DNA from: a virus
DNA: 50,275 bases
IMG/VR virus record: IMGVR_UViG_3300007276_000074
Span: 1 to 50,275 of that record
Reading direction: 5' to 3' (one strand)
Positions within the stretch are counted from its first letter, which is position 1. The number at the start of each line of letters is the position of its first letter. The position numbers and the translations under genes are program-made. The notes below the pieces were generated by a model. That model saw only the letters and a list, made by a program, of their open reading frames with translations, searched no databases and was not told where the DNA came from. This document shows, in pieces, positions 16,331-33,782 of this stretch.

Positions 16331-17701
16331 ATGTACATAGTTGGTAATGAAATAACAGTAACATTCGTACTGCCACCACAGGACCCTGTTCCTGTAGAAG
16401 CGGATTTCGATGTACAGTTTGTACCGTCTACTCTAGAAGCCTCATACACCAACGCTGGTGTTACGTCGTTTACAGCCCCAACCACAACCGTAGCTGGATT
16501 GCTGACCTACGCGTTTACTCCAGCTTCTCTTGGTCTTTTCCACCTATTTATTTCAACCGGCACAGCTGACAGTTATGAAGTACTGGCAGAGTCACGCTTT
16601 TGGGTATTCCTTGAGGCTCCTGTAACAGCGAACTCGGTTATTGCACATTCACAGCCGTCTATCCCACAATCAATACTTCTTAAGTCAGGTACAGGAGTTA
16701 CTGGCCCCTGGCACGATGTTGGAGCCATAGCTGAAGACCCAAGGGATGAGACTGTGTTCTGGGTAATGGGACAACGACTTTTGGGAGATACAGTAGGAAC
16801 GATTGTAAAATACAGAACTAATACCCAGGCGGTTATTACGGAACAGAAGACTGTAACAACAGCTTATGGCGGAATGCCAGACGTAAGTGGTATGGCCATA
16901 ATGCCAAATGGAAGAATATTAGCGTCTCAGCTCGGAGCCACTACTGGATCGGATTATCTTTGCTTTTATAGTGACGACGAAGGAGCTACCTGGAACACCT
17001 GCGTTTTATCAGGTGGACTTAATAATTTTGGAGGATCTTCAGGTCTTTACTACGACACTCTTCTCGAAGGTGTATGGTGGTATAGCCAAACAAAAGTATG
17101 GTTCTCACCTGATGGCCAAACTTTCTATGCCCAGGAGTACTCGGATTTCACGTTCGGAAGACAGCCTGCACAAGCAATGAACAAGGTCATAAGATACGGA
17201 AGTAACATAATTCTTGGCAATAACGGAAATAACACGTATGTGTCGAACCTACAAGTCCCACCGACAGGTGGAATACCCTGGACTCAGATGTATAACTTTA
17301 TAGGGATGATTGCCAGTAAGCAGCTAATTTTCCTGAAGCCGTCTCCAGATGGCAACAGCCTGGTAGCAATTTCCAGTGATGGATGGGTTGCCATATCATC
17401 TAGTGGAACTGGTGGTTGGAGCATAACAGACCACAGCTCTGTTCTCACAGGAACAATGGAAGAAGGTTGTTCAGTACCCGACTTTAATAAAATGATGGTA
17501 GCAAACTCTGCAGGTACATGGTTTGAAAGTACAGATCAGGGTTTGACATGGGCGCTAAGCACAGACATAAGGTTTACCGCATACCAAATGTCACAAGTGC
17601 CAGGCAACTTTGATACACACTCAAGAGGCTTTGCTAATAGTGGATACGGGTTTGTTGACGTTACTACTCCCCTAGCCGAACGTGTAGTGGTGGTGATATG
17701 A
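16331..17701 (+). CDS. Asp-box (sialidase-like) propeller virion protein
   Basis: The 456-residue protein has two parts. Residues 1-95 form an Ig-like beta domain that is closely paralogous to the whole front half of the next gene. Residues about 115-456 carry sialidase-type Asp boxes, SDDEGATW (214-221) and STDQGLTW (400-407), plus weaker SPDGQTFY repeats, the marks of a BNR beta-propeller. The Arg triad and Tyr/Glu of a true sialidase cannot be confirmed by eye, so it may bind glycans rather than cut them. A receptor or decoration role on the particle is inferred. Confidence 0.7.
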   Translation: MYIVGNEITVTFVLPPQDPVPVEADFDVQFVPSTLEASYTNAGVTSFTAPTTTVAGLLTYAFTPASLGLFHLFISTGTADSYEVLAESRFWVFLEAPVTANSVIAHSQPSIPQSILLKSGTGVTGPWHDVGAIAEDPRDETVFWVMGQRLLGDTVGTIVKYRTNTQAVITEQKTVTTAYGGMPDVSGMAIMPNGRILASQLGATTGSDYLCFYSDDEGATWNTCVLSGGLNNFGGSSGLYYDTLLEGVWWYSQTKVWFSPDGQTFYAQEYSDFTFGRQPAQAMNKVIRYGSNIILGNNGNNTYVSNLQVPPTGGIPWTQMYNFIGMIASKQLIFLKPSPDGNSLVAISSDGWVAISSSGTGGWSITDHSSVLTGTMEEGCSVPDFNKMMVANSAGTWFESTDQGLTWALSTDIRFTAYQMSQVPGNFDTHSRGFANSGYGFVDVTTPLAERVVVVI

Positions 17702-18126
17702 GTTGGTATAAAAAAGATGTAGAGATGACAGTACGGTTTCAGCTGAAGCCTCAGGCCGTACCACTGACAAAACCAGACTATGACATTCTCCTGGTCAAGC
17801 CAGACAAGACAGCAACGTATACAAATGACGGAATCACTGTCCTCACAGCGCCAACGGCAACTGCTCAGGGCGTAGCTGAGTATACTTTTACTCCAGACCA
17901 GGACGGTAGATACCTTATCACCCTGGGCTACGGAACCAGCTCAGATTTCGTAGAGCTTAACTACGTTGAACTAGAAGTCCAGACAGACGGCCAACCTGCT
18001 ATTTCTGCGACTATAGCAGCAAAGCGTACTTCAAAGGACACCAGAACTCTTGAAGCGGTGTCCAGAGCTACGGAAGCACCAAGCCGACCAGTAGAAGCCC
18101 CGGTTTACGGTGGAGTCACAGTGTGA
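17698..18126 (+). CDS. Ig-like virion protein, paralogue of the preceding N-terminal domain
   Basis: The 142-residue protein overlaps the propeller gene in ATGA. Residues 1-95 (MTVRFQLKP...YTNDGITVLTAPTATA...AEYTFTPDQDGRYL) align with the N-terminal domain of its neighbour (VTFVLPPQ...YTNAGVTSFTAPTTTV...LTYAFTPASLGLF). The last 40 residues are a Thr/Ala/Pro/Arg-rich tail likely to be flexible. The shared domain is probably the common docking module to the particle, here without a propeller. Confidence 0.65.
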   Translation: MSWYKKDVEMTVRFQLKPQAVPLTKPDYDILLVKPDKTATYTNDGITVLTAPTATAQGVAEYTFTPDQDGRYLITLGYGTSSDFVELNYVELEVQTDGQPAISATIAAKRTSKDTRTLEAVSRATEAPSRPVEAPVYGGVTV

Positions 18127-18158: not shown

Positions 18159-18836
18159 ATGACCGTAAAACTTACCGATCTGACGAATGAACTAGACGCC
18201 GCCCCGGGGGATGGCGTATTTGACATTCTCATACAAACTGTCGAGCTCCGTCTGCAAGAGCAGTACGACGAAGGCCGTATTACAGGTTCTGACTTTGCTA
18301 CCGTCTACCTCGGCGCCATACAGTCTGTACTGCAGCAATCCGTACAGTTCCTTCTGAACAAGGACAAGTATGCTTTGGAGCAATCGGTAATCCAGGCTAC
18401 TCTCGAGAAGCAGTGGGGTTATAATGTAGATGTAGACGCTGATGGAGATCTCAGTCTTGGTGGGAATACCGGAGCAGGTCTAATCGACCAACAAGTACTG
18501 GAAGCCACTGAGAAAGTTGAAGTTGTCACAGCCCAGGCTGCCAAAGTGTACGCTGATACTGCTTTGGTTAAGCAGCAGCAAACTACAGAAATAGCGAACA
18601 CTGAAGACGCCACCGGTGGTACTATGAAAGCGAAGCAGGATCTTATCGCTGCACAGACTCTGGGCTTTGTAAGTGATACCAAGCAGAAGGTGCTTAAGCA
18701 GATGCTTGAAGGCTATGCTGTCACATTATCGATCGCCGGTACTGCAACAGCTCCGGACTGCACCAAGGAGCCTCAGATCGATGCTCTATGCGGTGAACTC
18801 TTGACAGATGTTGGATCAGCAGTAACAATACCATAA
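18159..18836 (+). CDS. conserved helical virion protein, unknown
   Basis: The 225-residue protein is helical with long Gln/Ala/Lys-rich stretches (EATEKVEVVTAQAAKVYADT, VKQQQTTEIANTED), and ends with a short Cys-containing segment (PDCTKEPQIDALCGELL). I do not recognise a named family. It stands one base before the acyl carrier protein gene, within the same tight late operon, so a structural role such as a tail or core protein is likely. Confidence 0.6.
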   Translation: MTVKLTDLTNELDAAPGDGVFDILIQTVELRLQEQYDEGRITGSDFATVYLGAIQSVLQQSVQFLLNKDKYALEQSVIQATLEKQWGYNVDVDADGDLSLGGNTGAGLIDQQVLEATEKVEVVTAQAAKVYADTALVKQQQTTEIANTEDATGGTMKAKQDLIAAQTLGFVSDTKQKVLKQMLEGYAVTLSIAGTATAPDCTKEPQIDALCGELLTDVGSAVTIP

Positions 18837-18837
18837 T

Positions 18838-19125
18838 ATGAAACAAGAAATATTAGATCGTCTCAACGAAATAATTGATGACGAAAAAGGTGTGCCTGTG
18901 ACAATGAAGTCAAAGTTCTCCGATGCAGAACTTGATAGTCTGGGCACCGTACTCACCCTTGCCACACTCGAAGCTGAATACCCATTCTGGAAAGACGTCC
19001 CGTCAACAGAGGATGCATACCAGCAGATCGACGTGCAGAACCTCACTATCCGGGAGCTTATTAGAAAATGCGTATCGTCGATTACCACAGCGTGCATGGA
19101 ACAGAGCAAAGAGACGGCTACATAG
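18838..19125 (+). CDS. acyl carrier protein-like protein
   Basis: The 95-residue protein has the acyl carrier protein layout: helix I (KQEILDRLNEIIDDEKGVPV), the signature FSDAELDSLGTVLTLATLE with Ser34 in the DSL motif that takes 4'-phosphopantetheine, an acidic helix II, a loop, and a final helix (VQNLTIRELIRKC). In known ACPs this serine carries a thioester-linked acyl chain for synthases and transferases. No phosphopantetheinyl transferase is visible here, so loading would rely on the host enzyme. The gene overlaps the ketosynthase by 58 bases. Compared with FAS ACPs, the residue after DSL is Gly and the C-terminus is longer by ~15 residues. Confidence 0.72.
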   Translation: MKQEILDRLNEIIDDEKGVPVTMKSKFSDAELDSLGTVLTLATLEAEYPFWKDVPSTEDAYQQIDVQNLTIRELIRKCVSSITTACMEQSKETAT

Positions 19126-19913
19126 CCATACCAGGTCTGAGCCGTGAAGGCTCTTCAGTGTCAGAATTCAGGAAACTGACCAATCTTGATATTACACTCA
19201 CCAGGCCAACAGCGTTCCTTTATGTTGATGGTTTCTCTATCAGCCAGTCCGAAGCAGGCTTAAATGCGAGTACTGGTGACCGTAAGATGCCGATGCTACG
19301 TTCTGGGAGCTCCTATATAGCGCATGAGTGGCTTTACAGGATGAAGGGACGTGAGCATATCAAGCACGTTAATATCATCTCCAGCACTTGTGCAGCGGGC
19401 ATACAGGCCTTGTGGGAGGCTGACAAGTTATTGAAGTGTCCCTCAGGCACTATTGAGGAGGTCATAATCATAGGGGCTGAAAGAACTACCCCGGCAACTA
19501 TCCAGCTGTTCTCTGAACTAAACATCCCTGTCAACTGCGGAGATGGTTTTGCATACATGCGCTTGATACCCGGTATTGATATCAGCCAGGTACAATGGAA
19601 ATTCGCCTTCAACAATAATCCTTTCCAGTTTAACAAGGAAGACATCGACACACTGGCACCAGGTTGCAGGATTGGGTATGTCAAACTGCATGGTACAGGA
19701 ACCAGTGCAAATACGGAGGCAGAGTCCGGATTAGCACAACTTGCTACCCCGATTGAATACAAAAGCAAAATAGGGCACACTCAAGGTGTTAGCTCTCTTC
19801 TCGAAACTTGTATACTATTGGACGATCCTAAGGTCAAAGGTAGGATCCTTGTTACAGCAAATGGCCTCGGTGGCTTTTACGGAGCGTTTTTACTTACGAA
19901 GCAATGGCACTAA
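19068..19913 (+). CDS. compact beta-ketoacyl synthase
   Basis: The 281-residue protein has the thiolase-fold ketosynthase motifs in order: NIISSTCAAG with nucleophile Cys108, VKLHGTGTSANTEAE with His208, EYKSKIGHTQG with Lys232 and His237, and the closing TANGLGGFYGAFLL in place of the usual NSFGFGG. The Cys-His-His triad is therefore intact. In the family this enzyme condenses an acyl group with malonyl-ACP. It is ~130 residues shorter than FabF/FabB: Cys lies at 108 rather than ~163 and the spacing to the first His is reduced, so cap and dimer loops are missing. The start at 19068 follows CGGGAG. It lies directly after the ACP gene, inside the late virion operon. Confidence 0.85.
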   Translation: MRIVDYHSVHGTEQRDGYIAIPGLSREGSSVSEFRKLTNLDITLTRPTAFLYVDGFSISQSEAGLNASTGDRKMPMLRSGSSYIAHEWLYRMKGREHIKHVNIISSTCAAGIQALWEADKLLKCPSGTIEEVIIIGAERTTPATIQLFSELNIPVNCGDGFAYMRLIPGIDISQVQWKFAFNNNPFQFNKEDIDTLAPGCRIGYVKLHGTGTSANTEAESGLAQLATPIEYKSKIGHTQGVSSLLETCILLDDPKVKGRILVTANGLGGFYGAFLLTKQWH

Positions 19914-20392
19914 TAACCGCACATGACATACTTGGCAATTCTAAGCTGATCGACGAATGCACACTGGAAGACATACCAGCGCATTTCGAGTTGATCAAGC
20001 ATTGGGTTCCTGAGGAGGAGCACCAGGAATTCAAGGATCGCATGGCTATTTGCGTGCAAGAAGGCCGGGCTTACACAATGTGCAGCAGCCAGACATTTCT
20101 ATACTATAAACACAGAAGCAAGAACCAGGTAGATGGTGTAGCGCTGTATGGCAAAGAAAGCCCAATAGATCTACTAGCCCTTTTCGCAGGAGTATTCAAA
20201 TACATCGACAGAGACGTGTTCATGATGTATTTCAAACTTCACCCGGGGAAATTCGTGGAAGAGTATAAATCTTTAGTAACACCCATATCAGTCAGGCGCC
20301 AAGGACAAGATCCAGAACGACCACTGGCTATTCGTATTGATAACATCAAAAAGAAAGTGAACCAAATATTCGAGACCAGGGGATTCGAATGA
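19904..20392 (+). CDS. unrecognised third gene of the ACP/ketosynthase cassette
   Basis: The 162-residue protein overlaps the ketosynthase by 10 bases and the following virion gene by 4. It is alpha/beta in outline: DIPAHFELIKHWVPEEEHQE helix region, then a beta stretch (RAYTMCSSQTFLYYKHRS ... VDGVALYGKE), a hydrophobic LLALFAGVFKYI segment, and a basic C-terminal helix (RIDNIKKKVNQIFETRG). The strand pattern is faintly GNAT-like, which would make it an acyltransferase, but I cannot see an acetyl-CoA loop. Its position suggests it uses or delivers the acyl product. Confidence 0.6.
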   Translation: MALITAHDILGNSKLIDECTLEDIPAHFELIKHWVPEEEHQEFKDRMAICVQEGRAYTMCSSQTFLYYKHRSKNQVDGVALYGKESPIDLLALFAGVFKYIDRDVFMMYFKLHPGKFVEEYKSLVTPISVRRQGQDPERPLAIRIDNIKKKVNQIFETRGFE

Positions 20393-23136
20393 GTGCTGTA
20401 TTCGATGCAATCGAAAGCGTATTAAAATCGGTATGGGATGCGATCGAGGAACTTGTCCAAGTTGTATGGGACGCTGTACTGGAGCCTGTACTGGGAGCTA
20501 TATTCGCAATATTTGGTATTGTTGATGAAACAGTAGTTAATGTTGCCAAAGTATCGACTAAGATTTACGGGGATAACGCAGAAGATGTAGTAAAGGCTGC
20601 AATAGTCAGAGCGATATTCAAAAAGATCGATACTGAAACAAGCTATTTTCCAAACTACATGCAGCAGATATATCAGACCAAAGGACAGATACGATCAGCT
20701 TACAATTACGCAGACAGTGGACAGTACATATACGATCTTCCAAGTATGGACGTTACTGGAGCCGCAGCAAACATTGAGGGAATAGAAGCAGCCCTGGATA
20801 ACGACTTCGGGGGTACTAACACAATGCTGTCCGTGGTAACCGGGTACCCTACACCGACCAACTACTACAAGCACGAGCTTCAGTCTACCAACGACTATAA
20901 GCCTTGGCTCAATACTCTAACGGCAAATGACCCATATGGAGTATCCTGGGATGACTGGGAGCTGGGTACAGTAGTATATGTAGTTGGTCCGGACAACTTC
21001 CAGATTAACATTTCCCGTCTGGCGGTTGAGGCACAATTTTGGATAGAAGGCCCTAGCCAGGTAACAGAAGGGGACACTGCAGTATTCACCGTAAAGTGCA
21101 ACAGAACTCTTCCAATCGGAGAGACAGTAGATATAAACTTCGTCTACAGCGGCACAGCGGTGGATCCAACAGACTATGCTCAGGTAGCTTCCGTTACTAT
21201 GCTTGCCGAGACAAATGAAGTCGAAGTAAGTATCGTGACTGTGGACAGTGTGAATGCTAATACCAACTTCACAATTACGATCGACTCCATTACGAATACC
21301 GGGGCTTTCGAGATGGTGACGATACACGCAAACGACAGCAAGACTTGTACTATAACTGATGACGATACATTACGGCTCAACATAGAAGACATCTTAGTTG
21401 ACGAAGCCAATACGACGGTAACTATAGCAGTGACGTTGGCAGACGTCGCACCTTCAGGGGCATTCACTGTCGACTATAATTTTACAGATCTCGGATCTAT
21501 ACTCGGTGGTACCGACTATGACAACACAACGGGCACGCTGAACTTTGCTGGTACATCCGGGGAAGTGCAGAATATATCAGTAGATATTTATGCGGATGTT
21601 GCGGACGATGACAGAGAACAGTTTGAGGTATTCCTGGAGAACTCGAGTGACCTGGACAGTATCGACATATCTGCAGTTGGCACAGTAACAATACTGGACG
21701 GAACCAGTGACCCAGTAGCCGGGAACGCAACGTTAGAACACTCATTTACCATGGCTGCATACACTCCTGAAGATGGACTTTTCGTGACGTACGAGAACAA
21801 TGCAGAGCCCCCGGGGCAGTTTCGGTATTGGATATATGACTTCTCTGCGGGGACATACGCAGGTCTCGATACCGAAGCGAGTACAATACGAAACATGGAG
21901 ATGCTGCCAGTAGCTATTCTACGGCAAGATAAAATCCAGGTAGATGCCAACCAGTTAGACCCGTGGTATATAACCACTCGTCAACTTATGGCCAGACTGA
22001 ACCTTGACATAGAGGAATTTTCGTCTGCCATAGCAGCTAACCCGGATATCACAGATGTGGCGGATGCATACTTGAATTTCTCAATAGGGCCTAATGACAC
22101 AAGCCCAATACTATCCAAGATGTTGTGGATATCCTTCTATGAGATCATTGTCACTTACGGGATAACATCAAACATTGGGGAATACAAAGCCACATTCGAA
22201 GAGGGCCCGGTAAACAATGGAGTTGCCTGGAACGACCATAGTTACACCAGCGCAGTGTCTGGTGTCAAAACATCAGTGGGAGCTTATCTTCATGAGGTAG
22301 TTGGTACTGACTTATATATTTATTACCAGGCGACAGCCACTGAATACGATCAGATAGCTGTAATATCAATGGCGAATATGACAGCAATAGACTACGGCGG
22401 GTACCACCAGGTTGCTCTGGCTGCTCTTGGAGACAGCGAATTCACTATTCCAGTATCCTGGTTCGTCATTAACGAGTTGACAGCTGCAGAACAAATGGAA
22501 GTATACCAATACATCTTTCGTATCGATATATATGCCATAGTGGTAGAAGAGATCGCATGGTATGAAACCTCAGCATTCTTCAGCCTGTTCCAGTTCGCAA
22601 TGATTGTGTTTAGCGTATTCACATTTGGAGCAACTAGCTTTTTAGCGGCTATAGGACAGCTGGTTGTGAACTACGCAATTGCAGAATTAGTAGTGTGGGT
22701 TGCAGAGACTACCGGTAACGCCTTCCTTGCCGCCGTAGTTGGTGTCGTAGTAGGAATAGCGCTCAACAATCCAAAAGCTTTCACTGATAGCACATTCATG
22801 CAAGCAGAGAGCCTTCTGGACTTGGCTACAGAGTTCGCGGATACTTTCAGCGATGTTGAGGGTTACCTGGAAACAGAAGAGCTTAAGGCGTCTATAGAGC
22901 AAGCCCAAAGTGATTTAGAGGCTTCTGCAAAACAAGAGGAGCTAGACGAAAGGAACAATCCAGGTAGTCTGGCGGATGTTCAAGCCATCACTCCTGAGTT
23001 CCTTGTGGCACTTGATTCTCCCAGTACTGGCATAGAAACGTCAATTGCTGGACAATACGGGTATGATGAATTGTATAATTATGATAGTCTTACTACTAAC
23101 TTTCATGATATAAAGCTCCGTATAGGAGTAAACTAA
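20389..23136 (+). CDS. large virion protein with two Calx-beta domains and membrane segments
   Basis: The 915-residue protein starts with an amphipathic/hydrophobic region (LEPVLGAIFAIFGIVDETVV, about 30-50). Two Calx-beta domains follow, about 220-325 (VTEGDTAVFTVKC ... TITDDD) and 328-440 (LVDEANTTVTIAV ... ADDDREQFEVFLEN); this fold usually binds calcium and mediates adhesion. A long hydrophobic stretch at about 729-795 (FFSLFQFAMIVFSVFTFGAT, FLAAVVGVVVGIALNN) looks able to enter a membrane. A particle protein contacting the envelope during entry is likely. Its start overlaps the third cassette gene in ATGA. Confidence 0.7.
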   Translation: MSAVFDAIESVLKSVWDAIEELVQVVWDAVLEPVLGAIFAIFGIVDETVVNVAKVSTKIYGDNAEDVVKAAIVRAIFKKIDTETSYFPNYMQQIYQTKGQIRSAYNYADSGQYIYDLPSMDVTGAAANIEGIEAALDNDFGGTNTMLSVVTGYPTPTNYYKHELQSTNDYKPWLNTLTANDPYGVSWDDWELGTVVYVVGPDNFQINISRLAVEAQFWIEGPSQVTEGDTAVFTVKCNRTLPIGETVDINFVYSGTAVDPTDYAQVASVTMLAETNEVEVSIVTVDSVNANTNFTITIDSITNTGAFEMVTIHANDSKTCTITDDDTLRLNIEDILVDEANTTVTIAVTLADVAPSGAFTVDYNFTDLGSILGGTDYDNTTGTLNFAGTSGEVQNISVDIYADVADDDREQFEVFLENSSDLDSIDISAVGTVTILDGTSDPVAGNATLEHSFTMAAYTPEDGLFVTYENNAEPPGQFRYWIYDFSAGTYAGLDTEASTIRNMEMLPVAILRQDKIQVDANQLDPWYITTRQLMARLNLDIEEFSSAIAANPDITDVADAYLNFSIGPNDTSPILSKMLWISFYEIIVTYGITSNIGEYKATFEEGPVNNGVAWNDHSYTSAVSGVKTSVGAYLHEVVGTDLYIYYQATATEYDQIAVISMANMTAIDYGGYHQVALAALGDSEFTIPVSWFVINELTAAEQMEVYQYIFRIDIYAIVVEEIAWYETSAFFSLFQFAMIVFSVFTFGATSFLAAIGQLVVNYAIAELVVWVAETTGNAFLAAVVGVVVGIALNNPKAFTDSTFMQAESLLDLATEFADTFSDVEGYLETEELKASIEQAQSDLEASAKQEELDERNNPGSLADVQAITPEFLVALDSPSTGIETSIAGQYGYDELYNYDSLTTNFHDIKLRIGVN

Positions 23137-25269: not shown

Positions 25270-28125
25270 ATGCCCTTATCACCCGATGAGATTCTGCAGC
25301 GTAGACTGAGCGATCCTTACTACGGCATTGCAGAAGAAGCACTTGGAATATCTCTCTCCGAGCAGAAAAAAGCAAACCTGGCCTCCGCCTCTGTAGAGAA
25401 GCGGCGTAAGTTAGATCCTGCTGCTCAAGCGTCGGATGAAGCTCAACAGTCTCTTGCTGACGCATACTCACATATGAATGCTGGTGGAGGAACTGGGTTA
25501 CTCGACATAGCACAGTCCGCTCTATTCCAGAGCAGAGAGCATCTATTCGATATGGTGCCTGGTAGCCCAGAGATGCCAGAAGGTGTCGATCGTAATAAAC
25601 AGATCCAGGAGCTTGGAGATTTCCAGGCTGGTGTCACACCTGAAACTCGTGAACGCTTGGTAGGAGCTCCTCAGCAGAAAGTTGTCGAGTCATTAGCCGC
25701 CGGCAATTATGGTGACGCTGCTCTGCAGTCATTGGCAGCAGCCCCGGGCACACTGGCAGATAGCGCCGGAGTTTTACCTGAGCTAGCTCTTGGCGCATTA
25801 GCTACGTACGTTACTGGTGGTGCAGCAGCTCCAGTGCTGGCCAGACGTGTCCAGAAAGGAGCTCAAGCCGTAGGCAAGATTACTGACGCCGTTAGCCAGG
25901 TCCAGGAAAAGAACAAACTATTCTCTCGTGCAGCAAAGGCTATCGAAACTGGTGTGAAAGCTGCACCGAAAGCTGCCGGCCAGGTGTCAATAGCTACCGC
26001 TGATATCACCCAGAGACAGATCAACGACTTCAAGCAGGAGCACGGTGTAGATCCTACTCGAGCTGAAGCTACCCAGATGTACGCACTGAACATGCTGACC
26101 ATGCTGCCACAGCCATCGATTATCAAGAATCTGTTAATCCCCAAATTCACCAAGGAGATCGGAAAGGAGATCCGGACGATCGGAAAGAACCTGGTTGGAG
26201 GATCCAACTTCGGATCAATCGTTTCACGGATCTTCGACGGAACCAAGAAAGTTGCCACGGCAGGTGGAGCGGAAGCAGCTCAGGAATATTTCCAGACCTG
26301 GGCCGAGAACCTGAACGTTGGAATGGGACCAGAGCAGCGGAAGAACTTCGCAGCCAGCCTGAAGGACATCGTACAGAGTGAAGATGCACAAATGCAAGCA
26401 CTGGTAGGCGCCTTCCTTGGTGGTGGTGCTGGAGCAGGAGCTCGAGGAGCCATCACAGTTCCAGCAGTAGCTGCCGGCACAGCAGTAGACGTCGTTAAAG
26501 GCACAGCGAAGACAGCCGCCAATATCGCCAAAAACCAGGCCAACAAGGCCAGCCTGAAAGTCCTCAGCGAGGAGGACCGGGAAATACTGAAGAGCGAGCA
26601 CGAAAGTCGGAAGGTAGTAGCAGCAGCCAAGATCTCTGATATCGATACCAACATCGAGATCGTAAAGAACGCTACTGACCTGGCAGGCCTGAAAGGGAAT
26701 GAAGGGACAGCAGAGCTGGCCAACGCCCTCCAGGTAAAGAAAGAGCTCACCGATGAGGATCTGAAGGATCCGGGCACACTCCAAAGTTTCAAGAAGGAGC
26801 TCGAGCGGACTTACAAAGCTGACAAGCTGACGATCCAGACCGAGGTGGAAGCCAGCAATATAGCTGCTATAGCCGCCCAAGCCGGCAAGAACGTGAAGGA
26901 CAAGTCAGTACAGGCAGCAAAAGACGCCGTAGCTGCATTAGACGTAGATGTTGACCAGATCGTAGAGAAGACCAAGCAGTATGGCTCAGCCACAGTAAAC
27001 GCTGTCAAAGGTATTGAGTCCAGCGTAGGCCTTGGTGTGATAGAGCTAGCCGGACGGAAGACGAAGCAAGGATCCGCCACTGCACTCAAAGCAGCTCAGG
27101 ACCTGTCGCTCACTGACCTGAATGCAGTATCAGCCGTAGTTGGGCAGATAGATCCCAAGATGGGAAAGAAGCTGAGGCGGATGGCCAAGAAGAAAGCTGC
27201 AGCACTGAAGCGTTCAGGCCTGAAGCGAACTGACCTCATTGCTGAAGGTGATCTGCCTCAGGTAGTTACCGACATAAACACGTCGGGTAACATCAAGGAG
27301 CAGGACGCAGGTGCTGGAGCAACAGCCCTCAACCGGGTGATCGCCTCTAACATATCCGACGTAGATACCCTCAACACGATCGAAGGCGCCTTGAAAGCGT
27401 ACAAGGACTCGGACGTGTTCAAGAACCAGACAGCTGGATCCGGAGTTATGAGCCCGCAGTCCATGGCCGCACTCGAAGCCAAACTGGCCCGTAAAGGCAA
27501 CAAGCTACGGAAGCCCGGCAAGAGAAGGGTTCTCAAGTTCATGGCCAAGATTAAAAGAAAAGGCATAATCCCTGTACTGAATGAAACCGGTGCGGCTAAA
27601 CAGTTGGCTGAAGCGTACAACAGCGATACGGCTAAAGGCATCATCCAGAAGATGAAGGATGTAACTCCGGATCTCATCGACTTCAATGATCCGGAAGCTG
27701 TTGCCGCTCTCGAGAAGAAGATAGAAGCTGGACTGACAGATACAGTAAAAACTGTCAAGAAAACAGTTGTGGGCCCTGAAACGGCTCAGGAAGCTACCGC
27801 GGTAACTGTCACCCCTGAGCTTGCCGCTAAGCTGAGAGCGGTAGAGGAGACGACCAAAGACCCGGTAGCTGCCAAAGTTCTCGTAGGTAAGGTCGACAAT
27901 ATATATAACGCACTGAAAAAGAATGGTATTGAGTCACGAGACCAATGGAACGACGTACTTAAAGATTTCCCTGGTCTGCAGAATGACAACACTTTTTTCA
28001 CAAAACTTGATCATAAGTTTCCAAACCCTATGGCTTTTGAAGAAAACACTGATACACTGGCCACCACTGAAGCTGATGTCAAAGAAGCTTACAACAAAAT
28101 GAACCCCCCGGAGTGTAAAATTTAG
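25270..28125 (+). CDS. large internal virion (ejection) protein
   Basis: The 951-residue protein is Ala/Lys-rich and largely helical. Glycine-rich hydrophobic stretches near 155-190 (LADSAGVLPELALGALATYV) and near 375-405 (LVGAFLGGGAGAGARGAITV) could cross a membrane. Around residue 335 the segment GGAEAAQEYFQTWAENLNVG is typical of very large core proteins of podoviruses. It probably helps form the trans-envelope channel. The last ~60 residues are less Lys-rich. It ends two bases before the RNA polymerase gene. Confidence 0.65.
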   Translation: MPLSPDEILQRRLSDPYYGIAEEALGISLSEQKKANLASASVEKRRKLDPAAQASDEAQQSLADAYSHMNAGGGTGLLDIAQSALFQSREHLFDMVPGSPEMPEGVDRNKQIQELGDFQAGVTPETRERLVGAPQQKVVESLAAGNYGDAALQSLAAAPGTLADSAGVLPELALGALATYVTGGAAAPVLARRVQKGAQAVGKITDAVSQVQEKNKLFSRAAKAIETGVKAAPKAAGQVSIATADITQRQINDFKQEHGVDPTRAEATQMYALNMLTMLPQPSIIKNLLIPKFTKEIGKEIRTIGKNLVGGSNFGSIVSRIFDGTKKVATAGGAEAAQEYFQTWAENLNVGMGPEQRKNFAASLKDIVQSEDAQMQALVGAFLGGGAGAGARGAITVPAVAAGTAVDVVKGTAKTAANIAKNQANKASLKVLSEEDREILKSEHESRKVVAAAKISDIDTNIEIVKNATDLAGLKGNEGTAELANALQVKKELTDEDLKDPGTLQSFKKELERTYKADKLTIQTEVEASNIAAIAAQAGKNVKDKSVQAAKDAVAALDVDVDQIVEKTKQYGSATVNAVKGIESSVGLGVIELAGRKTKQGSATALKAAQDLSLTDLNAVSAVVGQIDPKMGKKLRRMAKKKAAALKRSGLKRTDLIAEGDLPQVVTDINTSGNIKEQDAGAGATALNRVIASNISDVDTLNTIEGALKAYKDSDVFKNQTAGSGVMSPQSMAALEAKLARKGNKLRKPGKRRVLKFMAKIKRKGIIPVLNETGAAKQLAEAYNSDTAKGIIQKMKDVTPDLIDFNDPEAVAALEKKIEAGLTDTVKTVKKTVVGPETAQEATAVTVTPELAAKLRAVEETTKDPVAAKVLVGKVDNIYNALKKNGIESRDQWNDVLKDFPGLQNDNTFFTKLDHKFPNPMAFEENTDTLATTEADVKEAYNKMNPPECKI

Positions 28126-28127
28126 CT

Positions 28128-31100
28128 ATGGCCTGTCAAGATTTTGATGCGTTTAAAGAGTTCATCCTGCAATTCGACCAGAAGGTCGAGATCGACAAAG
28201 CGAAGGATAAACCCCTCCGGTACAACGTATGGGAGACCACGCAGCAAGAGGTCATGGACCTAACAGCCAGGCTGGACACTTCAGTACTCGAGAACCCCAA
28301 CCAATCTCCGCACATTCTGCGTAGAATGGAGAGTGCTATTCTCCGCATAAAGGAATCCAGCAAGAGTGGTAAGCGCTTCCAGAAAGACATATTTTCAGGT
28401 GACTTCGTCATTGAGAAGTCGATCGCACTCCATGAACTCATGGAATCCGTCAAAGGCGAATCTGACAAGGCGAGGAACCTCGGTATTGAAGTATCAGCCA
28501 TCAGTGACACCGGGGTATTGCCGGCGTTACCTCTGAGCCGTATTGCTGCAAGCATCGGCCGGAAGATTGCATTCCAGAAAGGGTACCGCTTCAAGCGTGC
28601 CACAAACGAAGATTCCGCAGCCAAGATTGAAGGTCTCTATTACGATTTGGGCAATGAAGCCCTCATCCAATTAGAGAAGTCTGGGTATGCGAAGCTTCAT
28701 GATGACGTCCCGACCATCATGGACTATGTATTGAAGGAGGACCTAGATCCTGCATCAAGAAAAGTAAGGGATAACATTAACACGGATGTTCTATCAGTAT
28801 CGTTGGACGAAGGTGCGTTCAAGATAAGGAACGGTTACCCGGAAGCTGATTACTTCCTGGACCGTACCCAAGCGGACTTGAGCAATACAGATCTCGGTGT
28901 AGCAACCGACATGCTGCGCTTGTCACGCTATATCACGCAAGCTTCCACAATCGTACTGCCTGATACCAAGCCTACGATGAGTGAGGAGGAGCTCGCTCAG
29001 TGGGATGACGGAATAGATAAGGTAGACCCGAAGACTGCAGAGGCCAGAAAGGCCATGTACGATAAGCCATTATTTGTACATGACAGCCTGCACGATTTGA
29101 TGACTCTTCTCAACCAAGAGGCTCTGGATACCGGACAATCCGCAACAAAGATTATCACCGACACATTCGGTTCCAGGAAGAATATGATCAACAGCCTATT
29201 CGGGCTGAAGAGATCTGACAACTACTCGATCGACAAGAAGGAATCGGTTGCCGGACAGAACATGTCAAAAACCACTCCCTTGGATGACCTGGTCGAATAC
29301 TACGACGTAATCAACGAAGGATTCGATGGACCTGCACCTCTCCATATGCCTCAGAAGATTGGCAGAAATGCCAGGCTCTACTACCTGAACAGCGTGCTGA
29401 ACCCACATGCCTCGAAGCAAAGCCGCTACATGTTGACGCCGGGCAAGTACACCGTAGATATAGGATCCGCTGACTACGGATACCTGGCGTACCAGGTTGG
29501 CCAAGCGCTGGATAGCAACCTGACGATGGGTGATATCACCGGTGAGACGAACAAGCTCAGCGAAGCGCTGGCTGCGTACGAGGGCTACCTGAACGCTAAG
29601 ACCCTGGACAAGAAGCTGAAAGCTATGGGCCCAATGGCTCGGGCATTCCCAGGTGTCGACTATGTACAACTCCTCACGTCGCTTCAAGCAGTGCGTGACA
29701 TTCGTAGTCCGGTAGATGGGAAAGTAACCACACAATTCACAGTATCCGCTGATGCTACCGCCTCAGGTGGCACATTGACATTCCTTCAGGCACTGGGAAC
29801 AAACGAGAACGTTACGGAATTCTTCCAACGTATCGGGATGTTCAAAGCCGAAGGTGATGTCACAAAAGATTTGGACGACCTTTATGGTTTGATGTCAGAC
29901 GCAATTTCAGGTTTCGTGTCAGGAACCGGTACCGGAATTGGTCCGGACATTGGCGGACAGGACACCCAGGCATTGATGCAAGATACTCTAGAGATGTTGT
30001 TCCTGAAGCAGGGAAAGGACGTTCGAGAGCTTTCAAAAGACCCAACCATGACGTTTGTCTACGGCCAGGGCAAGAAAGGAGCCACACAGACGCTGTCTCG
30101 CAGCCTGGCTGATCGAATTATCGACAACCTGGATAACCCGGAAACCCGGAACTATATGGCACGCCTACTGGGCGATGACAAGTACAAACGCCTGGATAGC
30201 AGAGACCTGACCAACACTCGTGGGCTGTACAAGGACATTGTAGCTGCCCTGGTTGACCAAGAGCTACCACAGCAGTTGTTCGAGCTGATGAAGGACACCG
30301 TCAAGGACGAGTACCTGAAGCAATACCAGCAGCGTTCCGAGAAAGTATGGAACCTGGTGAAGAAGATGGACCCGAAGTCAAACTTCAAAGTCCTTCCGGC
30401 CGGCGCTGTTCTGGCTGGCAAAACTGCCGCGGCAGATCTGGCTGAGTATGGTATGCCAATCAGTAAGAAGGTTGAGGTGCTCAACACAGTCAAGGGACGA
30501 CAGGACACTGTCCTGACACGTCGGGACAAAGTCCAGAAGACGGTATTCGACGTCTCGACTGTCCACGGTATTGACGCTGCTCAGATGTTCCACTCAATAG
30601 CAGACTCACAACTGTCCGCAGGCATTATGTCGATTCATGATGATATAAGAGGCACGGTAGCTGATGTACGCGCTATGGAGGCTCAGTACGCCAAGACGAC
30701 ACTCGACGTTGTACGGAAATATGACGTACACCAGCAGATGATGGAAGCAATAGCAGCACAATCACCTGAGATTGCTGCCACCAAGGAATTCATCGACCTC
30801 AAGGCACAGATCGACGCTGACGTAGCTGCCAAGAACGAGATACTGGACTCCGGTGCTTTCAACGAACAGACTGATGCGCTCATCGGTGACGGAAAAGCCT
30901 ATGAGGATTTCTCCGGATTAACTTCTGAAAAAGAATTAACTTCGAGAGGTCGTGCAAGGCCGGAGGCCGCCGCTAAGACCGAAGAAGTCAATTCTTTATC
31001 GGAAGTTAATGACACTAATGTAGAGCCAGAAGCAGCTGGGACACAGCAGTCCGACAGGACTGTTGCTACCCCGAATCAGTCCGACAGGACTGATAAGCCG

Positions 31101-33782
31101 GCCACACAAACCGGTAAAAACTTAGGGTTTGCTGAGCCGAAGAAAGTTGTAAATGGAGCTAACGCCAAGCCAGAGCCTGAAGCGAAAGCCGAGGAAGCTG
31201 CTCCACAACCAGAGCCGACTCCAAAAGCCAAAGCCAAGGAGCAAGAAGATTACCGCCAGGCTTATGACGGTGTCTACGAGAATAAACTCTCGATGGACTA
31301 CCTGAATTTCGCAGTAGCGTCGATGATTAACAGCAAACTGGAACGTGCCGGCAAGAACTTTTCTAAGAACGTCCATGACGCTCTGTCCGCTCGTTTCCCG
31401 GTATACACCGATGTCGCTGACAAGATCCGCGGTATCTACGATGGATCACCTGCACTGCAGCAGCTGCTTCACACAGTAACCGGTGAAGGCGTCGACAAGA
31501 TGAAAAAGGCTGACATACTGGCTCAAATGGCTGCAATCAACTCACAACGTACTGAGATCATTAATGACCAGGTATCGCAGTTGAATACGCTGTCCAGGGA
31601 CCTCAGCGACAAGGATAAGATCACCCTTGACGTACTTACCTCACAGACTCCGCTGCACCACTACTTCACAATGGCGTCAGAATTCCAAAGTGCTGACGCA
31701 ATCAACGAAGAATCTACGCGATTACGTGCTGAGCTATGGAAATTGAACGCAAGAGCTGTGCGTGACATCGAAGACCTGGTGGACCTGAATCTCAAAAAGC
31801 CTGGCAAGGTAAAATATGGCCAACATTACAACATGGATGCTCTGCCAAGCATTCCGAAAACTGGCGATTTCGCCAACAGGCTGAAGAAGTATTACGCTTT
31901 GAGGTCGATCGAGGAAGTTGGGGCCAAGAAATTCGAGAAGCTGCTGGAAAACACTGAGCTCATGAACGTCATCAAGGACAACTCAGTTGCGAACGCTATA
32001 TCAACGCTGCAGAACGAAGGCACTAGCAACGTTCGTGACAGCCTGGTTCAGGACTACTGGAAAGAGCCTCAGGAACTGAGAGCTGTCGACCAGAAAGAAT
32101 TCCGCTTTTATGAGTTTGGTGACAACAGCGGCTGGAAAGTGCTGGAAGCTCCGACACCTGGCAAGCTGGGCATCGTATATAAGCCAATAATCGACTCTTC
32201 AGACATTGCTGGCGCCTACACAGACACAAAGCTGGCGAATACTGACATCACGGTTGACGAGAAGTACCGCAAAATGAACGGAGTCTACAAGACGGCCAAT
32301 GGTTACAAGCTGGTTTTATCAAAGCAGCAGAAGCGTGACCTTGGCCTGATCGAGGACTTTGCTCAGGGCCTGGTACGCTCAGCTGCTCACAGCATTGCGA
32401 TCCAGGAGTCACAGATCATCCGTGACAGCCTTTTAGTAGGAGAGACTCACCTTGATATCGCTTCACAAAAGAACGTCGACAAGCTGCAGGATATCATCGC
32501 TGCGGACAACGTTGATAACCCATGGTTCTTGAAACTCGGTGATACCCCGTATGGGAAGCTGCCGAAAGAGATCCGGGCTAAGTACCAACCGGTACAGGGC
32601 CGGGCTTCAAACGTTAAAGGCTTCGACGAAAACGTTGACCTGGTACGCAAGGATATTTCACACTGGCTCCTTGGAGCTAGCGCCAAGTCGTTGTTCCAGA
32701 ACCCTCAGCTCAAGTGGGCTGTAAGGATCCTGAAGAACCTGGTTTCTGGTGCCAAAATTGGCATGGTGGTGTTGAATCCGTTGAAGATTGCAAACGACAA
32801 TCTGTCAAACCTGACGTACCTCGGTGTGCTGGGCGTTAGCCCTGCTTTCATAGCACAAAACTACCACGAGATATCGAAGGACTTCGCTGACTACTCTAAT
32901 CTGCAACGCCAAATCTTCCAGATGAAGCTGCAGTTGGTAAGCCGGCCGGAGAGCGATGGCCTCAAGAAGGAAATTGGTGTGCTGCAGAAGCGATTGAAGC
33001 AGAACTCTATCGGAGATATCGGAGATAAAGGGTTCGTGAATTCCTTGGGTTCAGACCTTGTTTCTCGGAGTGCAGACACACTTTCCGGTTTCCAGGCAGA
33101 CATGCACAAATCGCTTGAATACCTGTTAACGAAGAAGGACGGGACGAAAAACCATCTCTCGAAGTTCATTGTTAAACTTCAGGATCTGGGATTCCAGGGC
33201 GAAGGTTTCTTTGACTACATCGCCAATATAGCTGGAAGATACGACAGTACCAAGTTGATACAGCAAGAGCTCGACCAGGTGGCCAATCGTCTCCGCGAAA
33301 TTAGAACGGATGAGGACGTTATCAACTACGTGTCACAGATCACCACCAGCCCAAGCAGTGAGCTTGTACGGGTTGGTTCAGCAATGACTGACCTGACAGA
33401 CGTCCTGGCTAAAGAAACGCTCTACAGGCATTTTGTGAAGAATCAAGGTATGAGTCCAGAGGATGCAAGAATCAAGGTCTTGGACTCGTTCCCGGATTAC
33501 AAGGAGAACATGCCGTTGGCAGTAAAAGAGTTGAGCGACGTAGGCATTATTATGTTCCCCAGCTTCTGGCTACGTATTCAGAAGGTTATTTACCGCATGA
33601 TGCGTGACAAGCCGATCAACCTGGCATCGGAATTGATGATACAGGAGATGCTTGGTTCGGATATCAATACGATATTTGAAGCGAACGTAATCAATAAATC
33701 GAATACGTTTGGAGGTCTGATCCATCCGCCATTTGAACCCGTTGGAATCAACAGTGTGTTACCTAAGGAGATCTTTGGCTAA
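28128..33782 (+). CDS. virion-packaged single-subunit RNA polymerase (N4 vRNAP-like)
   Basis: The 1884-residue protein contains all core motifs of T7/N4-type RNA polymerases with T7-like spacing. The DxxGR-type motif is GRNARLYYLNSVLNPHAS (R416, compare T7 RGRVYAVSMFNPQG). Motif A is SADATASGGTLTFLQALG (D542). Motif B is RELSKDPTMTFVYG (R633, K637, Y645, same spacing as T7 R627/K631/Y639). Motif C is SIHDDIRGT (D838, compare T7 IHDS). Catalytic Asp spacing is 296 residues (275 in T7). A disordered Pro/Ala/Glu linker (about 935-1035) joins a ~840-residue C-terminal helical domain that probably handles packaging or entry. N4's enzyme is ~3500 residues, so this is a compact version. It is the last late gene. 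Confidence 0.85.
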   Translation: MACQDFDAFKEFILQFDQKVEIDKAKDKPLRYNVWETTQQEVMDLTARLDTSVLENPNQSPHILRRMESAILRIKESSKSGKRFQKDIFSGDFVIEKSIALHELMESVKGESDKARNLGIEVSAISDTGVLPALPLSRIAASIGRKIAFQKGYRFKRATNEDSAAKIEGLYYDLGNEALIQLEKSGYAKLHDDVPTIMDYVLKEDLDPASRKVRDNINTDVLSVSLDEGAFKIRNGYPEADYFLDRTQADLSNTDLGVATDMLRLSRYITQASTIVLPDTKPTMSEEELAQWDDGIDKVDPKTAEARKAMYDKPLFVHDSLHDLMTLLNQEALDTGQSATKIITDTFGSRKNMINSLFGLKRSDNYSIDKKESVAGQNMSKTTPLDDLVEYYDVINEGFDGPAPLHMPQKIGRNARLYYLNSVLNPHASKQSRYMLTPGKYTVDIGSADYGYLAYQVGQALDSNLTMGDITGETNKLSEALAAYEGYLNAKTLDKKLKAMGPMARAFPGVDYVQLLTSLQAVRDIRSPVDGKVTTQFTVSADATASGGTLTFLQALGTNENVTEFFQRIGMFKAEGDVTKDLDDLYGLMSDAISGFVSGTGTGIGPDIGGQDTQALMQDTLEMLFLKQGKDVRELSKDPTMTFVYGQGKKGATQTLSRSLADRIIDNLDNPETRNYMARLLGDDKYKRLDSRDLTNTRGLYKDIVAALVDQELPQQLFELMKDTVKDEYLKQYQQRSEKVWNLVKKMDPKSNFKVLPAGAVLAGKTAAADLAEYGMPISKKVEVLNTVKGRQDTVLTRRDKVQKTVFDVSTVHGIDAAQMFHSIADSQLSAGIMSIHDDIRGTVADVRAMEAQYAKTTLDVVRKYDVHQQMMEAIAAQSPEIAATKEFIDLKAQIDADVAAKNEILDSGAFNEQTDALIGDGKAYEDFSGLTSEKELTSRGRARPEAAAKTEEVNSLSEVNDTNVEPEAAGTQQSDRTVATPNQSDRTDKPATQTGKNLGFAEPKKVVNGANAKPEPEAKAEEAAPQPEPTPKAKAKEQEDYRQAYDGVYENKLSMDYLNFAVASMINSKLERAGKNFSKNVHDALSARFPVYTDVADKIRGIYDGSPALQQLLHTVTGEGVDKMKKADILAQMAAINSQRTEIINDQVSQLNTLSRDLSDKDKITLDVLTSQTPLHHYFTMASEFQSADAINEESTRLRAELWKLNARAVRDIEDLVDLNLKKPGKVKYGQHYNMDALPSIPKTGDFANRLKKYYALRSIEEVGAKKFEKLLENTELMNVIKDNSVANAISTLQNEGTSNVRDSLVQDYWKEPQELRAVDQKEFRFYEFGDNSGWKVLEAPTPGKLGIVYKPIIDSSDIAGAYTDTKLANTDITVDEKYRKMNGVYKTANGYKLVLSKQQKRDLGLIEDFAQGLVRSAAHSIAIQESQIIRDSLLVGETHLDIASQKNVDKLQDIIAADNVDNPWFLKLGDTPYGKLPKEIRAKYQPVQGRASNVKGFDENVDLVRKDISHWLLGASAKSLFQNPQLKWAVRILKNLVSGAKIGMVVLNPLKIANDNLSNLTYLGVLGVSPAFIAQNYHEISKDFADYSNLQRQIFQMKLQLVSRPESDGLKKEIGVLQKRLKQNSIGDIGDKGFVNSLGSDLVSRSADTLSGFQADMHKSLEYLLTKKDGTKNHLSKFIVKLQDLGFQGEGFFDYIANIAGRYDSTKLIQQELDQVANRLREIRTDEDVINYVSQITTSPSSELVRVGSAMTDLTDVLAKETLYRHFVKNQGMSPEDARIKVLDSFPDYKENMPLAVKELSDVGIIMFPSFWLRIQKVIYRMMRDKPINLASELMIQEMLGSDINTIFEANVINKSNTFGGLIHPPFEPVGINSVLPKEIFG
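31047..31092. repeat. two identical 16-base hairpin repeats inside the polymerase linker
   Basis: CAGTCCGACAGGACTG occurs at 31047-31062 and 31077-31092, exactly 30 bases (10 codons) apart. Each copy is itself an inverted repeat with a 6-bp stem and GACA loop. They encode two QSDRT pentapeptides in the low-complexity linker. Confidence 0.85.

Follow-up and report, generated by a model that had tools for sequence, protein, structure and literature searches.

The closest described counterparts of the gene arrangement reported here are the RTX toxin-activating acyltransferases and CdiC, an RTX-type acyltransferase that is encoded beside its substrate CdiA and lipidates CdiA for binding to the outer membrane (PMC8510554). 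In these systems a small single-domain enzyme, whose gene adjoins that of its substrate, draws on an acyl-ACP donor, and the attached lipid is proposed to insert into the membrane (PMC8510554). Among phages, two proteins of ~140-150 aa, P22 gp14 (DUF2824) and T7 gp13 (PF11090), are encoded directly before the ejection genes for gp7 and gp14, respectively. Acyl carrier protein (ACP) and ketosynthase (KS) genes in phages have been assigned elsewhere: in the excerpts of the two accounts covered here, the ACP of phage R22Y (gp30) is listed as an AMG for host fatty-acid metabolism (PMC11705849) and fabG-acpP-fabF clusters of roseobacter prophages are read likewise (PMC8224337). Short-tailed phages use hydrophobic ejection and plug proteins to breach the outer membrane, by a mechanism that is still an open problem. 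The term acyl is absent from a review of ejection proteins (PMC8954989), and we found no relevant report of virion acylation in tailed phages in the open-access literature, although such an absence is not proof. Here we describe a cassette of ACP, usually KS, and a GNAT-fold protein, followed by a gene for an N-terminally tagged protein; its parts have known folds, and the system is undescribed in the open-access literature searched.

The window—the whole stretch of DNA analysed—is a virus record of 50,275 bases with an N4-like (Schitoviridae) gene block, in which PHROG matches identified a major head protein (phrog_1357), a gp54-like protein (phrog_2050) and a gp53-like protein (phrog_2220). 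In N4, gp54 is the tail tube and gp53 the tail plug (PMC12633501). Placement in Schitoviridae draws on the major head protein, the gp54 tail tube, the gp53 plug and a vRNAP (28128-33782; weak RNA_pol match, E 0.0036). All features of the locus lie on the plus strand. The gp54-like tail-tube gene (18159..18836; phrog_2050 virion structural protein, E 2.4e-35) stands directly upstream of the cassette and marks its insertion point. It is followed by a phage ACP of 95 aa (18838..19125), with its predicted phosphopantetheine serine, Ser34 (codon 18937-18939), in the motif DAELDSLG; by a FabF-type KS of a short form (281 aa; 19068..19913), with Cys108 (19389-19391), His208 (19689-19691), Lys232 (19761-19763) and His237 (19776-19778); and by a third gene, which we call T (162 aa; 19904..20392), predicted to encode a GNAT-fold acyltransferase. 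The next gene (20389..23136) encodes a 915-aa protein, the proposed acyl acceptor, which matches phrog_2220 (E 5e-32) and 9ze4_M (N4 gp53-like; E 0.015) and is 33% identical over its full length to its R22Y homologue. ACP and KS overlap by 58 bases, as they also do in the relative L098, KS and T by 10, and T and the 915-aa gene by 4; a preliminary description of this DNA had given these three overlaps exactly, and the ORF coordinates and lengths are likewise confirmed. Its label for the 915-aa protein, ‘Calx’, found weak support, with no Pfam Calx-beta match and Na/Ca-exchanger chains at E 0.3, and on its profile matches the protein is an N4 gp53-like tail plug, not generically a Calx protein.

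Taken alone, the window ACP had no Pfam match and the window KS was marginal (Ketoacyl-synt_C, E 0.0033, below the Pfam cut-off), and identification relied on relatives. An eight-member profile of N4-type ACP relatives matched solved ACPs (best E 2.3e-5) with the DSL serine aligned, a 26-member profile matched ACPs in the PDB (E 2.8e-7), Pfam found PP-binding in 11 of the 26 relatives, and Ser34 (the DSL/DSM serine) is invariant across aligned ACPs. For the KS, an alignment of 30 members yielded Ketoacyl-synt_C in all 30 (best 1.6e-20) and ketoacyl-synt in 28, a profile matched FabF structures (E 3e-27) with the catalytic residues in register, and Cys108, His208, Lys232 and His237 are invariant in 71/71 aligned sequences, the window included. 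By these comparisons, the first gene almost certainly encodes an ACP and the identity of the second as a ketosynthase is likewise close to certain, which bears out the DSL serine and the complete Cys-His-His triad reported earlier. The pair resembles FabF/KAS-II and AcpP in active-site residues and profile matches; unlike FabF/KAS-II (412 aa), the KS is short (281 aa in the window, ~370 aa in the main family), overlaps both ACP and T and is accompanied by no reductase or dehydratase. A scan of bacterial genomes for the KS gave one weak locus, in a Campylobacterales MAG, and therefore identified no host donor. On one N4-like contig (L101:3514-4371) the KS has HSTFT for the HGTGT motif and keeps the Cys and both His.

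Searching deposited phages with the KS by tblastn returned a single match, ctpbd312 (MW202545), which has the same order (ACP-KS-146 aa-639 aa). Alignments of the plug protein and of the KS served as the queries that recovered cassette relatives, and 72 distinct KS loci came from scans of viral contigs, with ctpbd312 and the window counted in. Where an ACP is in view, it overlaps KS in 71 of 71 loci; the start of T falls before the KS stop or at most 3 bases past it in 65 of 65. A scan based on T, blind to KS, confirmed 423 relatives; among the best 80 of these 423 loci, which partly repeat the earlier KS contigs, KS lies directly upstream in 79 (L126 being the sole exception), ACP is present in 76 (three of the four remaining loci are at the end of a contig) and the next protein carries a wider form of the tag described below, M[GSATP][AGS][VIA], in 77/79. 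Hundreds of uncultivated phages appear to carry an ACP, usually a KS, and a GNAT-fold protein before an N-terminally greasy virion protein. That the trio is a real, conserved cassette, not a stray metabolic gene, is nearly certain, and the earlier suggestion that a minimal acyl-transfer unit is coupled to a particle protein, as opposed to a metabolic gene acquired by chance, gains support from this conserved order across many contigs and from the invariant triad.

In several tested cases the genes upstream of the cassette are virion genes (e.g. phrog_3287, phrog_1645). At L015:3932-4882 the gene before the ACP is glycosyltransferase-like (phrog_24687, E 4.8e-46), not a virion gene, and L016 has the same ORF positions. 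A KS locus on a 67.7 kb virus contig (L001:7260-11048; also L043) was set aside as a cassette member and left out of the 72 for its different arrangement: the KS precedes a hexapeptide-repeat acyltransferase (PF00132, E 2.7e-14), with an AMP-ligase-like ORF on the other strand, and represents a second kind of phage acyl locus.

Single-sequence Pfam and PHROG searches with T gave no match. The AlphaFold model of the main-family T (36 sequences) reached a pLDDT of 95.7, with the GNAT element order a1-a2-b2-b3-b4-a3-b5-a4-b6-b7, and Foldseek matched it to GNATs in the PDB at probability 1.0. For the window T (4 sequences), pLDDT was 78 and the element order the same; almost all of its listed Foldseek PDB matches are GNATs, at weak scores (best E 6e-3), and they include the N-terminal acetyltransferases Ard1, NatE, Naa50 and NatA. 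On these models, we predict that T is a GNAT-fold protein, with high confidence for the main family and moderate confidence for the window. The KS and ACP, by profile, and the third gene, by AlphaFold, accordingly have folds that suit the acyl unit of the preliminary description, in which the third gene had been left unassigned. Window-type T relatives occur in R22Y, PT11-V19 and L098-L100, and a degenerate-pattern scan with three window-type sequences as queries confirmed no relative. Since hhalign detected no sequence homology between the window and main families, a role common to both rests on fold and position.

A motif scan showed that the acyl-CoA pyrophosphate loop, R/Q-x-x-G-x-G/A at b4-a3, is conserved in neither T family: the motif occurs in 4/36 main-family sequences as chance matches elsewhere in the protein, and in the window T (residues 75-80) and the L098 T (73-78) it falls in b4. 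For this reason we treat T as a GNAT fold and not as an acetyl-CoA GNAT, and the missing loop would fit an enzyme fed by ACP. T resembles eukaryotic N-myristoyltransferase and N-terminal acetyltransferases in its predicted fold and in the proposed acceptor, an N-terminal Gly, Ser or Ala exposed by Met removal; unlike T, those enzymes use acyl-CoA, and the likeness comes with no demonstrated sequence relationship.

The same missing motif would also suit a non-enzymatic assembly module, in which T would be, like P22 gp14, a chaperone or scaffold with a GNAT fold and the ACP a structural or regulatory partner, as it is in several host complexes. Annotated as a head morphogenesis protein, P22 gp14 is encoded right before ejection gene 7, and T7 gp13 right before gp14; a DUF2824 protein is among the fold matches of the main-family T, and GNAT-fold proteins of this kind next to ejection genes may serve in assembly alone. 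However, the invariant KS active site (71/71) and ACP serine point to catalysis, and profile comparison of T with P22 gp14 by hhalign gave no homology (probability ~0.1%), so that we consider an assembly module improbable. Membership of T in the P22 gp14/DUF2824 family was itself rejected on that comparison and for lack of a DUF2824 Pfam match, leaving a resemblance of fold. P22 gp14 and T7 gp13 have no adjoining ACP or KS, and the N-termini encoded downstream of them bear no tag. LuxI-type synthases also have a GNAT fold and take 3-oxoacyl-ACP as substrate, which would allow the cassette to make a diffusible product such as an acyl-homoserine-lactone-like signal; T has no Pfam match to the autoinducer synthase family, though, and a signal would leave both the virion-embedded position and the tagged neighbour unexplained, making this the most remote of the readings considered.

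The protein encoded after T is variable, at 300-1,900 aa and in ten clusters that are unrelated by BLAST when compared after residue 100. Its start is not: M[GSA][AGS][VIA] opens 50 of 59 distinct downstream proteins versus 2 of 330 other ORFs from the same loci, a crude background comprising every ATG ORF of at least 200 aa. Residue 2 is Ser in 25, Gly in 23 and Ala in 6 (54/59 together), and amphipathic V/A-rich repeats follow. In the window, the tag (MSAVFDAIESVLKSVWDAIEEL...) spans residues 1-43 of the plug protein (20389..20517), which starts MSAVFDAIESVLKSVWDAIEELVQVVW; over residues 2-43 the mean hydrophobic moment is 0.459, against 0.175 ± 0.052 for shuffled sequences (0/2000 as high). 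An origin of the tag as a by-product of overlapping frames was rejected, because the T overlap is usually no more than 4 bases and the tag is unchanged where there is none. Used as a tblastn query against cultured phages, the tag consensus found no match.

HlyC, CyaC and CdiC, which depend on acyl-ACP and are encoded adjacent to their substrates, modify internal lysines (PMC8510554), and the same cassette might place its acyl group on an internal Lys or Ser of the downstream or another virion protein, with the tag as a membrane-active or docking helix. Our comparison of the cassette with CdiC is by analogy: T is not a HlyC family member by Pfam, the cassette has its own ACP and usually a KS, and its presumed substrate is a virion tail-plug or ejection-type protein. 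Against internal acylation, the element common to otherwise BLAST-unrelated downstream proteins is their extreme N-terminus, with its small second residue, and the fold matches of the window T include N-terminal acetyltransferases; we regard an internal site as unlikely. The tag could also serve membrane insertion or assembly without any acylation.

Two genomes deviate from the tag, PT11-V19 (MGKL) and L099 (MCNP). At L099:5417 and in L126 the downstream proteins start MCNP or MCSIV, with Cys at position 2 in place of Ser, Gly or Ala; L099 has no KS and L126 neither KS nor ACP, and a different acceptor chemistry is possible in these two on account of the Cys and the missing genes. The virion-block proteins of ctpbd312 and its relatives (L002:15783-18944; L012:5851; L145) are strikingly Cys-rich, including a 412-aa ORF with long CCSCCC runs, and have Cys within the N-terminal amphipathic tag.

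N4-like phages allow the tag to be compared in homologous proteins with and without the cassette. In Vibrio phages 1.025.O, 1.097.O and pVa5 and in pYD6-A (annotated as Schitoviridae), gp54 is followed directly by gp53; the same holds for PT15-A5, 98PfluR60PP and EcP1, and D454 has a tiny ORF between the two. As the sampled cultured relatives mostly lack it, the trio looks like a cassette inserted between gp54 and gp53. In an alignment of gp53, an N-terminal amphipathic extension of 40-odd residues is present in five cassette-bearing members (the window, L098, L100, R22Y and PT11-V19) and missing from all eight sampled cassette-less homologues, in a comparison that takes no account of descent. 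The gp53 proteins of L099 and L101 also have an N-terminal amphipathic stretch. In the cassette-less L104, L105 and L106, gp53 starts MGLFSSK or MGLFSRP, that is, with Gly2 followed by hydrophobic residues.

In the main family KS is hardly ever missing, and three N4-like genomes—L099 and the cultured Alteromonas phages R22Y and PT11-V19—have ACP and T without it. On this evidence we take the ACP-T pair to be the core of the cassette in N4-like phages, with KS adding a tailoring step; these three genomes show that condensation is not always needed. The ACP-KS-third-gene order of the preliminary description holds as a conserved order, but KS is not obligatory in N4-like phages.

These genomes also bear on the AMG reading, in which ACP and KS would, ahead of lysis, boost or modify fatty-acid synthesis or the membrane lipids of the host. 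It has in its favour the published interpretations cited above, as far as the excerpts covered go, and R22Y gp30, described there as an ACP, matches the cassette ACP; the same excerpts contain no mention of a GNAT-fold neighbour or a tagged plug protein. The cassette, however, sits among virion genes as a chain of overlapping ORFs, contains ACP, KS and T but neither reductase nor dehydratase, and stands fixed before the tagged gene. Its GNAT-fold partner is near-obligate, tag and cassette co-occur, and R22Y itself has no KS. We consider a role in host lipid metabolism quite unlikely for the cassette in general, and unlikely for the R22Y ACP.

The preliminary description had left three possibilities: acylation of a virion protein, alteration of host lipids, and supply of a small molecule. 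The evidence favours the first, because T has a predicted GNAT fold, the downstream proteins have a common N-terminal tag, and tag and cassette co-occur in N4-like phages. Sequence comparison and modelling show the gene order, the conserved active sites, the folds, the tag and the joint occurrence of tag and cassette; from these we consider it probable that the cassette acylates the neighbouring virion protein. Our working model, to which we incline somewhat, is a late, tightly coupled protein-acylation cassette in which T moves an ACP-borne acyl chain onto the N-terminus of the next protein and KS sets the chain; taken by itself, the N-terminus as the site of attachment is evenly poised.

In this model, a host phosphopantetheinyl transferase would convert the phage ACP to its holo form, and the ACP would take an acyl chain from host fatty-acid synthesis. 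Where KS is present, its Cys-His-His site would set the chain, most likely by one condensation to give 3-oxoacyl-ACP; that the transferred chain is 3-oxoacyl is conceivable but doubtful. T would then pass the chain on from ACP to the product of the following gene, the acceptor most likely being the alpha-amino group of residue 2 (Ser, Gly or Ala) after removal of the initiator Met. In the window, the acceptor would be the N4 gp53-like tail plug. Residues 29-56 of N4 gp53 belong to the hydrophobic knot corking the tail tube (PMC12633501), which puts the N-terminal end of gp53 at the tail tip. There, the amphipathic N-terminus, once acylated, may serve as a lipid anchor or as a greasy cork that contributes to sealing of the tail tube or to the hold on the host outer membrane while DNA is ejected. 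More broadly, and more tentatively, we propose a widespread self-contained system in which a (3-oxo)acyl chain, made by a dedicated ACP and KS, is placed by a CoA-independent GNAT on the N-terminus of plug or ejection-type proteins, providing a tail-tip anchor for engagement of the outer membrane. If so, lipidation of the plug by machinery that the phage itself encodes would add a new post-translational step to virion assembly, and genes filed as host-metabolism AMGs would become virion-maturation genes.

Two further features of the window lie outside the cassette. The ORF at the vRNAP position has just 1,884 aa, compared with ~3,500 in N4, and is preceded by a 951-aa ORF (25270-28125) without a Pfam match; in this virus the giant polymerase may be divided or shortened. 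Between the gp55 and gp54 positions (16331-18126) are a 456-aa BNR/Asp-box protein (PF02012, E 2.2e-5) and a 142-aa protein whose N-terminal domain resembles that of its larger neighbour, and comparable modules occupy this position in R22Y, L098 and L099.
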